The position numbers were made by a program, and so were the translations under genes. A stretch of 64,000 nucleotides of DNA from Chryseobacterium sp. Leaf394 (GTDB lineage: Bacteria > Bacteroidota > Bacteroidia > Flavobacteriales > Weeksellaceae): assembly GCF_001424105.1 (NCBI RefSeq), contig NZ_LMQH01000011.1:275827-339826 (forward strand), written 5' to 3'. Positions within the stretch are counted from its first letter, which is position 1; the number at the start of each line of letters is the position of its first letter. The notes beneath the pieces are model-generated. The model ran no database searches and was not told the DNA's origin. It saw nothing but the letters and a program-made list of their open reading frames with translations. Shown in pieces: positions 20,611 through 50,045 of this stretch.

Positions 20611-20650
20611 CCAACTTGGCTCTTCTTACTTTTTACTTGGCTCTTCTATT
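20611..20650. repeat. AAGAGCCAAGTAAAAAG interspersed repeat, copy 1
   Basis: Reverse strand AAGAGCCAAGTAAAAAGTAAGAAGAGCCAAG, beginning exactly at the nrdA stop codon. Related copies are at 28798, 48210 and 48578. Confidence 0.75.
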
Positions 20651-22307
20651 AAGCTTCACAAGCCGAACAGCTCACAAAATTCACCATCATTTCCTTAGAA
20701 ACAGACGAACTTCTTTGGTAATACAAAGTTTTCACACCTTTCTTCCATGCCTCAATGTAAAGATAATTCACATCTTTCACAGGCATCGTAGACGGAATCT
20801 GTAAATTCAGAGACTGCGCCTGATCAATGTACTGCTGTCTTTGTGCAGCCTGAGAAATAATCTCCATCGGAGAAATTTCTTTGAAGGTTTTGAATACTGC
20901 TTTTTCTTCGTCAGTCAGTTCAGTTAAGTGCTGTACAGAACCGTGGTTCAACATAATTGTTCTCCATGTTTCTTCGTTGTCAAGACCTTTATCTTCAAGC
21001 AATTTAGCCAAATATTTATTCTTACGCATAAAGTTTCCTTTCGCCAGACCCGCTTTGTAGTAATTTGACGCAAAAGGCTCGATTCCCGGAGAAGTCTGAC
21101 CTAAAATCGCAGAACTTGAAGTGGTAGGAGCGATCGCCATTACCGTTGTATTTCTCATTCCGTAACCTTTCAGAAGTTCAGGCTCACCGTAGATGTTTGC
21201 CAGTTCTTTCGATGCAATATCTGCCTGAGCTCTGATGTGTTTGAAAGCTCTTGCATTAAACTGCGTTGCCTCAAAACTCTCAAAAGGAATCATGTTTTTC
21301 TGAAGGTAAGAGTGGTATCCCAAAACTCCCAAACCAAGCGCTCTGTGACGCATCGCGAAGTCTCTCGCTCCTTTCAGGTAATAATTTCCTTCCGTTTTTT
21401 CGATAAACTCAGACAAAACAGCGTCAAGAAAATAAATCGCCAACTGTACTGCGTTCGTATCTTTCCACTCGTCGTACAATTCTAAGTTCATAGAAGACAG
21501 ACAGCAGATAAAAGACTCCTCTCTGGTTGAAGGAAGCATAATTTCCGAACAAAGATTACTCGCATTTACGGTCAATCCAAGATCTTTGTACACCTGAGGT
21601 TTGTTTCTGTTCACGTTATCCGTAAAGAAAATGTAAGGAAGACCTTTTTGCTGACGGCTTTCCAAAACTCTCGCCCAGATTTTACGTTTGTCGGCATCAC
21701 CGTCAATCATATCCTGCATCCAGTAATCAGGTACACAAATCCCTGTAAACAGGTTCTGAATCGGACTACCAATGTCTTTAATTGATAAAAATTCTTCAAT
21801 ATCACCGTGGTCAACATCAAGATAAGCCGCAAAAGCACCTCTTCTTACACCACCCTGAGAAACGACATCCATAGACGTGTCAAACAGTTTCATAAACGAA
21901 ACCGCACCCGAAGATTTTCCGTTATCGGTCACCGCAGTTCCTCTGTTACGAAGTTCCCCGAAATATCCCGAAGTTCCGCCCCCGATTTTCGTCTGCATAA
22001 TCACTTCACCCATTTTGTGGGTAATTCCTTCAATGCTGTCCGGAATATGCACGTTGAAACAAGAGATTGGAAGACCTCTCTGCGTTCCCATATTCGCCCA
22101 CACCGGAGAAGAAAAACTGATCCATCCTTTCATGATCATCTCCTTGAAAGCCGGCTGCAGTTCAGGTTTGTATAATTTTTTTGCTGCGGCAGTCGTGATT
22201 CTGTCGATTGCACCGTCTACGGTTTCCCCTTTCAGAAGGTAACCTCTGTTCAGCATTTGCTCAGATTCTTCGTTGAGCCACCAGATATTGTTGTTTTGTT
22301 CTTCCAT
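20649..22307 (-). CDS. nrdA: ribonucleoside-diphosphate reductase, alpha subunit (class I)
   Basis: 552 residues. It reduces ribonucleotides to deoxyribonucleotides with the NrdB subunit. Catalytic residues by position: C83 (ISCFNVH), N251/C253/E255 (NLCSE), C268 or C269 (ICCLSS), the radical-transfer pair Y529-Y530 (TLYYQRSS) and the C-terminal C547/C550 (SCSACEA) that re-reduces the active site. It begins directly with the catalytic core region. There is no N-terminal ATP-cone, which explains the length compared with ~760 in E. coli. nrdB lies 1.1 kb upstream on the same strand. Confidence 0.97.
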   Translation of the reverse strand: MEEQNNNIWWLNEESEQMLNRGYLLKGETVDGAIDRITTAAAKKLYKPELQPAFKEMIMKGWISFSSPVWANMGTQRGLPISCFNVHIPDSIEGITHKMGEVIMQTKIGGGTSGYFGELRNRGTAVTDNGKSSGAVSFMKLFDTSMDVVSQGGVRRGAFAAYLDVDHGDIEEFLSIKDIGSPIQNLFTGICVPDYWMQDMIDGDADKRKIWARVLESRQQKGLPYIFFTDNVNRNKPQVYKDLGLTVNASNLCSEIMLPSTREESFICCLSSMNLELYDEWKDTNAVQLAIYFLDAVLSEFIEKTEGNYYLKGARDFAMRHRALGLGVLGYHSYLQKNMIPFESFEATQFNARAFKHIRAQADIASKELANIYGEPELLKGYGMRNTTVMAIAPTTSSSAILGQTSPGIEPFASNYYKAGLAKGNFMRKNKYLAKLLEDKGLDNEETWRTIMLNHGSVQHLTELTDEEKAVFKTFKEISPMEIISQAAQRQQYIDQAQSLNLQIPSTMPVKDVNYLYIEAWKKGVKTLYYQRSSSVSKEMMVNFVSCSACEA

Positions 22308-22633
22308 CTTTTATATTGTAAAATGTACGAGGTACACTATTATGTTATTATTCTTTGGGAGCAGAAAATTTTGTCTGTCTCCTCACTGTTCTACCTGCTT
22401 TCCGCTATATCTTTTTTGTGATTGCGGACAACATTATTTTATCATTTCACTTTTCTGCCACCGCAATCACAAAAAAGGATGCCGCTGCAATCAGGGCTAA
22501 GACGACGTTTTGTTTTCCCTTACCACTGAATCCCGTTTTTGCGAGGAACGAGGCAATCCATTAATAAGTTTTGGCTAAAGCCAAATGAACTTCCTCTTTT
22601 TGCAAACGGGCTAAAGCCCGTTCCTAGTGATAT
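22308..22633. other. repeat-filled spacer between nrdA and the ABM gene
   Basis: A 326-bp region made up largely of an imperfect inverted repeat (22391-22499) and one copy of a GGCTAAAGCC-type repeat (22541-22636). No gene is seen. I find no clear -7 box for nrdA here. Confidence 0.7.
22391..22499. repeat. imperfect long inverted repeat, MITE-like, copy 1
   Basis: The left arm CCGCTATATCTTTTTTGTGATTGCGG and the reverse complement of the right arm (CCGCAATCACAAAAAAGGATGCCGC) match over ~25-30 bp around a ~33-bp centre. A second copy of the same layout (CCGCT.TATCTTTTTTG ... CAAAAAAGGATGCCGC) is at 48431-48522. Confidence 0.75.
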
Positions 22634-22636
22634 TTA
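22541..22636. repeat. GCGAGGAACGA / GGCTAAAGCC interspersed repeat, copy A
   Basis: GCGAGGAACGAGGCAATC, then TTTTGGCTAAAGCCAAAT and AAACGGGCTAAAGCCCGTT, two nested palindromes with a common GGCTAAAGCC core. It is matched by copy B at 22941-23102 in the same orientation. Confidence 0.8.
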
Positions 22637-22921
22637 AACAGGCTGTAAAAACTCTACTTTATGAGAATCATTCAGTCCGCTTTCGTCTCTTAACCTCTGA
22701 AATTCTTTGAAGGACGGAATGTTTAAAACCTCATTCTGCACTTCTTCGTTTTCATAATTTGAAAAATGAACAAACGTAACACCGTCTTCTTTCACAAAAA
22801 CTTTATACTCAAATTTTGTCTGGTTTAAAGTTTTAAAATCATTCAAAAACTTCTGAATATTGCTTTTGTTTTCAGAAACAAACTCAGGTTTTACGGTATA
22901 ACTTACGATTACGTTAATCAT
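22634..22921 (-). CDS. antibiotic biosynthesis monooxygenase-like (ABM) domain protein
   Basis: 95 residues. A dimeric ferredoxin-like ABM fold is suggested by INVIVSYTVKPEFVSENKSNIQKFL at the N-terminus and VTFVHFSNYENEEVQNEVLNIPSFKEFQ later. Such small cytoplasmic proteins include quinol monooxygenases and heme or polyketide enzymes, plus many of unknown role. The start at 22921 gives the usual short N-terminus. The gene is flanked by direct copies of one repeat, and its stop codon lies inside copy A. Confidence 0.7.
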   Translation of the reverse strand: MINVIVSYTVKPEFVSENKSNIQKFLNDFKTLNQTKFEYKVFVKEDGVTFVHFSNYENEEVQNEVLNIPSFKEFQRLRDESGLNDSHKVEFLQPV

Positions 22922-22940: not shown

Positions 22941-23102
22941 GCGAGGAACGAAGCAATCTCATCTTTTATACAAATGCTTCGAAAAGCTCAGCATGACATG
23001 TCTAATACTAACTGTTTCGGCGCTAGCTTTGTAAGTTTTGGCTAAAGCCAAATGAATTTCTTCTTTTTTAAACGGGATAAAGCTCGTTCCTATTGATATT
23101 TA
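22941..23102. repeat. GCGAGGAACGA / GGCTAAAGCC interspersed repeat, copy B
   Basis: The same ends as copy A (GCGAGGAACGAAGCAATC and TTTTGGCTAAAGCCAAAT ... CGTTCCTATTGATATT). It holds an extra internal segment with GCTTCGAAAAGCTCAGCATGACA, another element typical of dispersed bacterial repeats. Confidence 0.8.
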
Positions 23103-23180: not shown

Positions 23181-23450
23181 TTAGCAGTAAGAGTTAAGAA
23201 AATCAATTGTATTGTTGTTAATACCAATACACGAAACATCACCTGTGGTTTCTGTTATTAATAATTGCTCGTCATCTGTGATAAACGTTGAAAAAATCTT
23301 TTGCAAATCGTGTCCTATTGATGTAGAAACAATAAACCATGTATTAGGGAAAACTTCAATAAAATTAGAAGAAACAAGTTTTATTTTATTCTCTAATTCT
23401 ATATTTTTCTTGAAAATATTAGAATGATATGATATGAAAAATATACCCAT
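23181..23450 (-). CDS. small hypothetical protein, SinR/Cas2-like fold possible
   Basis: 89 residues. The pattern NTWFIVSTSIGHDLQKIFSTFITDDEQLLITETTGDVSCIG resembles small ferredoxin-like proteins annotated as SinR family, which share a fold with Cas2 (a W-[FL]-[IV]-x-T strand, then an amphipathic helix, then D-x-LLI). No catalytic residue set is evident. It begins 11 nt after the nrdB stop, so it is probably co-transcribed with nrdB. Function is not assigned. Confidence 0.55.
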   Translation of the reverse strand: MGIFFISYHSNIFKKNIELENKIKLVSSNFIEVFPNTWFIVSTSIGHDLQKIFSTFITDDEQLLITETTGDVSCIGINNNTIDFLNSYC

Positions 23451-23461
23451 TTTATTTCAAT

Positions 23462-24436
23462 TTAAAACAAGTCATTCGCCGTAATACTCTTATCATGCTT
23501 TGTATAATCCACCGGTCTTTTTGCGAAGAAATCATCCATAGAATTAGCAAAAACTTCTTCTTCAAACCATTTCATCGGGCTGTACTGTTCTGCAGTAGTA
23601 TTATAACGTTTTTCCATGTTGATTTTGGTTAAACTTTCGTCAACACGGTATTTCATAAAGTTAATCAAATCCTGTTTAGAGAATTTATCCAGTTCGCCCA
23701 TTTCAAAAATCCAGTCAAGAATTTCTCCTTCAAGTTCGATAGACTGATCTACCAAAGTGTAAATATCTTCAATATCAGAATCAGTCAAAAGATCCGGCTG
23801 CTCTTCACGGATTTTATTTATCAGGTAAATTCCGCCGTTCGCGTGAATCTGCTCATCGATAGACGTCCAGGCAATAATATTGGAAACGTTTTTCATGAAG
23901 CCTTTAAATCTAGTGAATGATAAAATAATCGCAAACTGCGAGAATAAAGACACATTCTCAATCAGAATACTGAACAGAAGCAAAGACGAAACATACTCTT
24001 TAGGCGTTGCAGAGTTGGCATGTTTCAGCACATTAGATAAAAACTGAATTCTCTTTTTCAGGGCAGGAACTTCCACCACATGAAGAAACTCTTCATTATA
24101 GCCCAACACCTCAAGCAAACGCGAATACGCTTCCGAATGACGGAATTCACATTCTGCAAACGTCGCTCCCAAACCGTTCAGTTCAGGCTTCGGAAGGTGG
24201 TTGTAAAGATTACCCCAAAACGACTTTACCGAAACTTCGATCTGAGCAATCGCCAAAAGTGCATTTTTTACCGCATTTTTCTCGTGCGGCTCCAGCTGCG
24301 ACTGAAAATCCTGAACATCTGCCGTGAAATCTACTTCCGAGTGTACCCAGAAAGATTTGTTGATCGCTTCTGTAAACTGAAGAACTTCAGGATACTCAAA
24401 TGGCTTGTAGCTTACTCTTTTATCAAAAATTCCCAT
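23462..24436 (-). CDS. nrdB: ribonucleoside-diphosphate reductase, beta subunit (class Id pattern)
   Basis: 324 residues. It houses the dinuclear metal cofactor that starts the radical reaction. Metal ligands by position are E67, E97, H100 (CEFRHSEAY), E160 (LIENVS), E195 and H198 (DEQIH). Tyr104 is present, and the residue four after the first ligand is Lys71 (IEVSVKSFW). This E67/K71/Y104 set is that of the Flavobacterium johnsoniae class Id (dimanganese, superoxide-activated) subunit. Classical class Ia proteins have Asp and no Lys. There is no NrdI gene nearby and no ATP-cone at the N-terminus. Confidence 0.95.
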   Translation of the reverse strand: MGIFDKRVSYKPFEYPEVLQFTEAINKSFWVHSEVDFTADVQDFQSQLEPHEKNAVKNALLAIAQIEVSVKSFWGNLYNHLPKPELNGLGATFAECEFRHSEAYSRLLEVLGYNEEFLHVVEVPALKKRIQFLSNVLKHANSATPKEYVSSLLLFSILIENVSLFSQFAIILSFTRFKGFMKNVSNIIAWTSIDEQIHANGGIYLINKIREEQPDLLTDSDIEDIYTLVDQSIELEGEILDWIFEMGELDKFSKQDLINFMKYRVDESLTKINMEKRYNTTAEQYSPMKWFEEEVFANSMDDFFAKRPVDYTKHDKSITANDLF

Positions 24437-48430: not shown

Positions 48431-48522
48431 AGCTAATCCGGCTATCCGCTGTATCTTTTTTGCAGCGGTCTCCTCTCCGTTCCGTCCGCCACAAAAAAGG
48501 ATGCCGCTTCTATCCGGGCTAG
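48431..48522. repeat. imperfect long inverted repeat, MITE-like, copy 2
   Basis: CCGCTGTATCTTTTTTGCAGCGG faces the reverse complement of CCGCCACAAAAAAGGATGCCGC, the same layout as 22391-22499. Confidence 0.75.
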
Positions 48523-48577
48523 TTTTGAAAGAAACAAGATTGTAAGAGCTATGTAAAAAGTATAAATAACCTTATTG

Positions 48578-48637: not shown

Positions 48638-48690
48638 TCTCAACCTCAACCTTAACCTTAACCTCAGCCTCAACCTCAACCTTAACCTAA
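48638..48690. repeat. AACCTC/AACCTT hexamer repeat overlapping the mntH stop
   Basis: Eight hexamers of AACCTT or AACCTC, the complement of the 40683 array. Its last bases contain the mntH stop codon (48687-48689). Confidence 0.85.
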
Positions 48691-50018
48691 TCCGTAAAAG
48701 TCTGGTACAAAAGATAAATATTGAGCACAATAATAATCACCGCAATAATCCAGACACAGGTTTTCAGAAATGGTTTATTAGCAAATTCTCCCATTTTTCC
48801 CTTGTCATTGGTAAACATAACCAAAGGAACAACAGCAAAACTCAACTGCATCGACAGAATTACCTGACTTAAAACCAGAAGATCAGTAGTTCCCTGTTCG
48901 CCATAAATTATTGCTACAATCAATGCCGGAATTACTGCGATCAATCTTGTGATCAGTCTTCTCAACCAGGGTTTTAACCTGATATTCAGAAAACCTTCCA
49001 TTACGATTTGTCCTGCCAGAGTTCCCGTTAACGTTGAATTCTGTCCCGATGCCAAAAGCGCAATGGCAAAAACAATACTCGCCATCGAAGCTCCAAGGAT
49101 TGGGGTGAGCATTTTGTAGGCGTCATGAATGTCTGCGACGTCTTTATTTCCGCTGGTGTGAAAGGTTGCAGCCGCCAGAATTAGAATTGCAGCATTAATG
49201 AAAAACGCCAAAATCAATGAAACTGAAGAGTCTAAAGTGGCAAATTTTATAGCTTCCTTCTTTCCTTCTTTAGTTCTGTCGTAATCGCGGGTCTGAACAA
49301 TACTGCTGTGAAGATAAAGATTGTGAGGCATCACCGTTGCACCAAGAATTCCAATTGCAATGTACAGCATTGCCGGATTGCTGATGATCTCTTTTTTTGG
49401 AACGAGTCCTCCGAAAATTTCATTTAACGCAGGTTCTGAAATCACGAGTTCATAGACAAAACATCCGAGAATAATAAAAATGAGTCCGCCAACTATACTT
49501 TCAATCCAGCGGAAACCTTTTGCCTGAAGCAAAAGAATAATCAAAACATCAACAGTAGTAATCACAATTCCCCAGGTAAGCGGAATTCCAAAAAGTAAAT
49601 TTAATGCAATTGCAGATCCGATGACCTCTGCCAGATCACATGCAGCAATGGCAATTTCACATAAAATCCAGAGCATAAAATTGGTCTTGGGACCATAATG
49701 ATCGCGGCATGCCTGTGCCAAATCTCTTTCTGCAACAACACCCAGTTTTACTGAAAGATGCTGCAAAACCATCGCAAATATATTTGAAATCAGAATTACT
49801 GAGAGAAGGGTATAGCCAAACTGCGCACCACCGGCAATGTCTGTAGCCCAGTTTCCTGGATCCATATATCCCACAGCTACCATCAGACCAGGTCCGGCAA
49901 AGGCAAGGTATTTTCGCCAAAAACTTCCATTTTTGGGGATCTTAACGGAAGAGTAAACTTCGGGAAGAGAATGCATGGTTTTTTCTTTACGCCAAGCACT
50001 TTTTAATTTCAGATTCAT
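48687..50018 (-). CDS. mntH: Nramp family divalent metal transporter (MntH-like)
   Basis: 443 residues with 11-12 membrane helices. The metal-binding DPGN is in helix 1 (VGYMDPGNWATD), and the helix 6 motif is LGATVMPHNLYLHSS with the Met-Pro-His pair. It takes up Mn(II) or Fe(II) with protons. This matters here because the RNR subunit is of the dimanganese type. A perfect 9-bp palindrome between the -7 box and the ATG indicates repression by a metal-sensing regulator of the MntR/DtxR kind, not encoded in this window. Confidence 0.93.
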   Translation of the reverse strand: MNLKLKSAWRKEKTMHSLPEVYSSVKIPKNGSFWRKYLAFAGPGLMVAVGYMDPGNWATDIAGGAQFGYTLLSVILISNIFAMVLQHLSVKLGVVAERDLAQACRDHYGPKTNFMLWILCEIAIAACDLAEVIGSAIALNLLFGIPLTWGIVITTVDVLIILLLQAKGFRWIESIVGGLIFIILGCFVYELVISEPALNEIFGGLVPKKEIISNPAMLYIAIGILGATVMPHNLYLHSSIVQTRDYDRTKEGKKEAIKFATLDSSVSLILAFFINAAILILAAATFHTSGNKDVADIHDAYKMLTPILGASMASIVFAIALLASGQNSTLTGTLAGQIVMEGFLNIRLKPWLRRLITRLIAVIPALIVAIIYGEQGTTDLLVLSQVILSMQLSFAVVPLVMFTNDKGKMGEFANKPFLKTCVWIIAVIIIVLNIYLLYQTFTD

Positions 50019-50045
50019 ATTTGTTAGAAATGACTAACAAATGTA
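50019..50045 (-). promoter_or_regulatory. mntH promoter with 9-bp operator palindrome
   Basis: ATTTGTTAG-AAATGA-CTAACAAAT (50019-50042) abuts the ATG and overlaps the -7 box TACATTTG (reverse strand, 50038-50045). A bound dimer would block initiation. Confidence 0.8.

Follow-up and report, generated by a model that had tools for sequence, protein, structure and literature searches.

We found that the nrdB gene of Chryseobacterium sp. Leaf394 very likely specifies a class Id ribonucleotide reductase beta subunit, belonging to the lysine subgroup of the NrdBi type, with a Mn(III)/Mn(IV) starter that would be made by superoxide and without NrdI. The gene lies on the minus strand of the 64,000-nucleotide stretch of DNA that was analyzed as a whole, hereafter the window; on the plus strand, the stated frame of 23462..24436 is interrupted by stops. 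The gene and the codons of its diagnostic residues are located as follows.

23462..24436, minus strand: nrdB, radical-generating (beta) subunit, very likely of class Id, 324 aa, ATG start, ATP cone absent
24236..24238, minus strand: Glu67 codon, first metal ligand (Asp in E. coli NrdB and NrdF), placed by alignment
24224..24226, minus strand: Lys71 codon, class Id lysine near the metal site (role described in excerpts of PMC8463856 and PMC6754362)
24215..24217, minus strand: Trp74 codon, NrdBi tryptophan three residues past the lysine (signature described in an excerpt of PMC6754362)
24125..24127, minus strand: Tyr104 codon, placed by alignment
23864..23866, minus strand: Thr191 codon, class Id hydrogen-bond partner of Tyr104 (role described in an excerpt of PMC8463856)

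The initial annotation had proposed class Id from residues counted by hand, and our direct reading agrees with its count of Glu67, a lysine four residues on, Glu97 and Tyr104 seven residues after that. It had also suggested an alignment against characterized proteins, which bears out the class. NrdB aligns without gaps over 324 residues with chain A of 6CWO, the class Id protein of Flavobacterium johnsoniae (PMC6754362; this paper and PMC8463856 are cited throughout from excerpts). The two proteins share 229 of 324 residues and all 13 checked positions (W30, E67, K71, W74, E97, H100, Y104, E160, T191, D194, E195, H198 and Y311), so that NrdB has Glu67, Lys71, Trp74, Tyr104 and Thr191 as well as the other ligands and two residues of the radical path, and the differences amount to species-level sequence divergence. 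A phmmer search of the PDB with NrdB as the query returned 6CWO over its full length (E = 2e-154) and 6SF4 (3e-94). Next came 9DWS (4e-33), followed by 2ANI, 1SYY and 4D8F/4M1I (1e-17 to 4e-17), and the E. coli NrdB entries began at about 2e-8. We take 6SF4, together with 6SF5 and 5OLK, to be entries of Leeuwenhoekiella blandensis NrdB, and 2ANI and 1SYY are presumably class Ic structures. A further entry of this group, 4M1I, is assigned to class Ic in PMC8463856. The class Id structures match NrdB far better than those of class Ic or of E. coli NrdB, and judged from these alignments the likeness to class Id is not due to chance.

According to the excerpt of PMC8463856, class Id proteins pair a glutamate with a tyrosine, place Lys71 in a helix that is unwound after Glu67 and let Thr191 partner Tyr104. 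NrdB has the glutamate as first ligand and the second-sphere tyrosine (E67 and Y104), and it has T191, whose hydrogen bond to Tyr104 is predicted at the level of sequence. The lysine, which marks a subgroup of class Id, follows four residues after the glutamate as K71, and W74 stands where the NrdBi tryptophan is described, three residues past the lysine (PMC6754362). Every class Id feature that a sequence can display is thus found in NrdB, and nothing in its sequence speaks against this class.

In alignment with E. coli NrdB and NrdF, Tyr104 falls at their radical tyrosine, which is the position expected if NrdB were a class Ia-like Fe/tyrosyl-radical or a class Ib Mn/tyrosyl-radical enzyme carrying a stable radical on Y104. 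In the same alignment, however, Glu67 lies opposite the Asp of both E. coli proteins, K71, W74 and T191 are present, and the class Id structures match much more strongly, which makes such an enzyme highly improbable (the E. coli residue facing K71 varies with the alignment and was given no weight). Class Ib would moreover combine an Asp first ligand with NrdI in the genome; the ligand is Glu and NrdI, which class Ib uses, has no match there. A class Ic-like Mn/Fe enzyme would account for Glu67 as the first ligand, but class Ic pairs this glutamate with Phe (PMC8463856) where NrdB has Tyr104, and with class Ic structures at about 1e-17 against 2e-154 for class Id we give this reading the least credence of all.

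With class Id as the preferred assignment, the metal, the oxidant and the mechanism of NrdB are probably those of its characterized relatives. By homology, two Mn(II) ions would bind at E67, E97, H100, E160, E195 and H198, with helix 1 unwound past E67 and K71 close to the metals and next to an open cavity. Superoxide would convert the two Mn(II) into a stable Mn(III)/Mn(IV) cluster with no need for NrdI, Y104 would be held away by T191 and bear no stable radical, and the manganese cluster itself would initiate transfer of the radical to the NrdA active-site cysteine. In the type enzymes, too, superoxide is the presumed oxidant in the cell, because H2O2 also forms the class Id cofactor in vitro and superoxide is preferred for a difference in efficiency (PMC6754362).

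The protein itself is ordinary, since structures of close relatives and their mechanism are already in print. Like the F. johnsoniae protein, for which the excerpt of PMC6754362 describes no added domains, NrdB is free of an ATP cone. The L. blandensis protein carries Glu170 and Lys174 at the spacing of E67 and K71, and Facklamia ignava NrdB shows the Glu, Lys and Trp signature at equal spacing, but it bears added glutaredoxin and ATP-cone domains (PMC6754362) that the window NrdB does not have.

The partner gene of nrdB is found on the same strand.

20649..22307, minus strand: nrdA, catalytic (alpha) subunit, 552 aa, TIGR02510 at 719 bits (cut-off 602)

NrdA contains the motifs NLCSE, ISC, CCLS and YYQ and a C-terminal CSAC. 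No ATP cone was detected in it, as Pfam at E ≤ 0.1 gives PF02867 and PF00317 alone, and this is the architecture described for class Id alpha subunits (PMC8463856).

The Leaf394 genome (4.32 Mb in 17 contigs, 100% complete, 0.29% contamination) contains a single match to PF00268, the family of class I small subunits. Its three segments matching PF02867, a family that also covers class II enzymes, all fall inside the window nrdA and represent one large subunit, and NrdD (PF13597) has no match in the whole genome. The initial annotation had seen no NrdI gene near nrdB; this holds and extends to the whole genome, where PF07972 gave no match at E ≤ 0.001, while among 14 control genomes the same search found NrdI in three, those of E. 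coli, B. subtilis and L. lactis. It also fits the report that none of more than 260 class Id sequences has NrdI in its vicinity, as given in the excerpt of PMC8463856. The sequence, its residues, the gene pair and the lack of detectable NrdI and other reductases in the genome are direct observations. From these profile searches the class Id enzyme looks like the only ribonucleotide reductase of the genome, and because no other was detected we can fairly infer, as the initial annotation had, that DNA precursor synthesis in this organism depends on manganese.

Leaf394 thereby adds an organism in which class Id seems to be the sole source of deoxyribonucleotides. If it is the sole reductase, manganese would be directly essential, as would the activating oxidant, and Chryseobacterium would offer a clean place to ask where cellular superoxide comes from; in vivo cofactor assembly and the superoxide source are left open in the excerpt of PMC6754362. 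Searches of the open-licence literature for Chryseobacterium with manganese and for class Id with Bacteroidetes returned nothing specific.

The window also encodes a putative manganese importer, in which the initial annotation had seen a tightly regulated counterpart to the reductase.

48687-50018, minus strand: mntH, Nramp at E = 2e-139
50020-50041: perfect palindrome TTTGTTAG-N6-CTAACAAA, one base from the mntH ATG

This palindrome is the sole exact copy in the genome. Allowing up to two mismatches gives 5 genome sites versus 7 for a reversed-pattern control, and only the exact site is regarded as meaningful because the inexact ones are no commoner than this control. Together with the one DtxR-family match in the genome, the palindrome is a candidate metal-regulator site, and regulation of mntH by manganese is plausible. 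Whether provision of manganese for the class Id reductase is the main reason for keeping and regulating mntH is a different matter. The palindrome just before the mntH start codon and the DtxR-family match are consistent with it, but nrdB lacks an equivalent of the palindrome; the window's single further match differs at 3 positions and lies inside nrdB, and chance alone would be expected to give about one match of this quality. A comparison of 398 genomes of one Flavobacterium-like genus with patchy class Id also lends no support to a general link. Class Id is matched at E ≤ 1e-100 in 91 of these genomes and Nramp, the one manganese importer covered, lies over its cut-off in 270, with 61 of the 91 class Id genomes and 209 of the 307 others containing it (Fisher p = 0.90; odds ratio 0.95, for related genomes uncorrected for kinship and with incomplete ones kept). 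Nramp over its cut-off is missing from 30 of the 91 class Id genomes, 27 of which are at least 90% complete. We therefore rejected the idea that class Id and mntH are inherited together within this genus, and consider it possible but doubtful that mntH serves chiefly this enzyme; mntH may still supply manganese in Leaf394 itself.

The class Id residues are kept widely among relatives. A family sample of 40 regions comprised 36 with a class-Id-type NrdB and four picked for weak matches, and E67, K71, E97, H100, Y104, E160, T191 and D194 are kept in all 36 class-Id-type proteins. The four weakly matching regions (L045 to L048) come from relatives that also have class Id, and hold a different class I reductase whose first ligand is Asp and whose own nrdA lies close by. 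A scan of named genomes gave 503 confirmed relatives, and in the best 80 of these all 13 checked residues are the same (80/80). These 80 are nearly all Chryseobacterium, with a few Elizabethkingia and Kaistella and one Weeksellaceae record, and as the closest relatives they form no independent sample; the NrdB proteins of C. caseinilyticum, C. luquanense and C. kimseyorum are identical to the window NrdB over 324 residues. A set of 22 further NrdB proteins, 20 from more distant genomes and two shared with the 36 family proteins, has E67, K71, W74, Y104 and T191 throughout (22/22) and Glu at position 194 in seven. An NrdB homolog was found in 141 of 148 family genomes and in 137 of the 140 more complete ones, and a strong match (at least 330 bits) in 30 of 395 genomes of the phylum. 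A scan of viral contigs yielded 510 stretches related to either class Id subunit. In the best 80 of these 510 (L216 to L295), nrdB and nrdA are both present as separate ORFs (80/80), and E67, K71, W74, Y104 and T191 are kept in all 80, with Glu at position 194.

The distance between nrdB and nrdA varies considerably among these genomes. In 11 of 12 Flavobacterium-like loci, 4 to 98 nt separate the two genes, the twelfth (L204) being a second nrdB copy without adjoining nrdA, whereas the window gap measures 1154 nt and contains inserts; among the named loci (best 80 of 503) the distance ranges from 65 to 2133 nt. The window gap holds an 89-aa ORF, two copies of a repeat, a Flavo-1 RNA and a 95-aa protein, which are listed here with the second Flavo-1 copy of the window.

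23181-23450, minus strand: 89-aa ORF directly after nrdB
22565-22636 and 23032-23102: repeat, two copies flanking the ABM-fold gene
22634..22921, minus strand: 95-aa protein of predicted ABM fold between nrdB and nrdA (longer ORF call to 22939)
22387-22502, minus strand: Flavo-1 RNA (RF01705), 79 nt before nrdA
48431-48524, minus strand: Flavo-1 RNA (RF01705), second window copy, after mntH

The 89-aa ORF has a homolog in one of the 80 named loci (L130, 47% identical; best 80 of 503), and among the 148 family genomes its own copy and one weak match elsewhere were found. As homologs are nearly absent, it was rejected as a part of the reductase system and is treated, on this distribution, as a lineage-specific insert. 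The repeat copies are 83% and 95% alike in two parts and contain palindromic cores such as CGGGCTAAAGCCCG.

Of eight close relatives scanned, six have Flavo-1 RNA ahead of nrdA, at a distance of 76 to 79 nt. The genome holds at least 31 copies over the cut-off, with 150 of 1095 first-look candidates scored, and this dispersed occurrence led us to reject it as an nrdA-specific regulator. A role at nrdA is possible, membership in the reductase system putative, and the phrase "Flavo-1 RNA" retrieved no paper from the open-licence literature. In more distant genera the nrdB-nrdA gap is filled by ORFs of a different kind, 81 to 94 aa long and often containing LGEYIYMGMG. Grouped by eye, this type occurs at seven loci (L037, L038, L039, L040, L051, L063 and L066), and the one full-length member scanned gave no Pfam match.

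The 95-aa protein occurs at the nrdB-nrdA gap in 49 named loci out of 80 (best 80 of 503), each time in the orientation of nrdB; 48 copies lie wholly within the gap, and that of L164 overlaps the gap ends through a longer ORF call. It is missing from this place in the other 31, and in one near relative (L118) the copy is cut to 74 aa. Pfam ABM is matched weakly by 12 of 13 aligned members (best 1.6e-4), the window copy reaching 0.002, below the curated cut-off, and having no match in NCBIfam. AlphaFold2 on 13 sequences gave a model with a mean pLDDT of 89.6 and a pTM of 0.79. For this predicted fold Foldseek ranks ABM-family and related proteins highest, starting at E = 1.7e-7; E. coli YgiN, a quinol monooxygenase, comes at rank 26 (E = 2.8e-5). 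A sequence-profile search of the PDB contained no ABM entry, and the two pyrin entries (0.0004 and 0.007) and HoxX (>2) that it returned were set aside as spurious beside the fold result. Against the window copy, dN/dS was 0.035, 0.044, 0.044 and 0.090 in four of eight pairs, two of which have dS near 3, the other four pairs being saturated.

We regard the ABM-fold protein as a putative member of the reductase system. It would be tempting to see in it a dedicated class Id helper of the Chryseobacterium group that controls quinol oxidation or superoxide near NrdB and in this way takes the part played by NrdI in class Ib. The predicted fold with its match to the ABM family including YgiN, the low dN/dS and the place and strand kept in 49 of 80 loci (best 80 of 503) point in this direction, as does the activation of F. 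johnsoniae NrdB in vitro with superoxide-generating quinols (PMC8463856). The 31 loci that have no such protein there and the shortened L118 copy argue against it, however, as do the 12 Flavobacterium-like loci in which it was not found, the unrelated small ORFs that fill the same gap elsewhere and the statement in the excerpt of PMC8463856 that class Id requires no activase in vitro, and we think a helper of this kind very unlikely. A literature search combining the ABM family, ribonucleotide reductase and superoxide returned nothing relevant.

Unusual arrangements of the reductase genes were seen at a few other loci. On an 8-kb contig (L212, 2219-4972, minus strand), a single frame of 918 aa carries NrdB at residues 1-324 and NrdA at residues 368-918. 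A fused reductase is not mentioned in the excerpt of PMC12918982, and with this one case and separate ORFs in the best 80 of the 510 viral stretches, the fusion was rejected as a wider class. Second class Id nrdB copies with the key residues kept occur in L052 (3001-3972, plus strand), L068 (5001-5972, minus strand) and L204, with no nrdA within 3-5 kb around them. In one genus, likely Elizabethkingia, 4 of 6 genomes contain two full-length nrdB copies, two of these genomes having been inspected.
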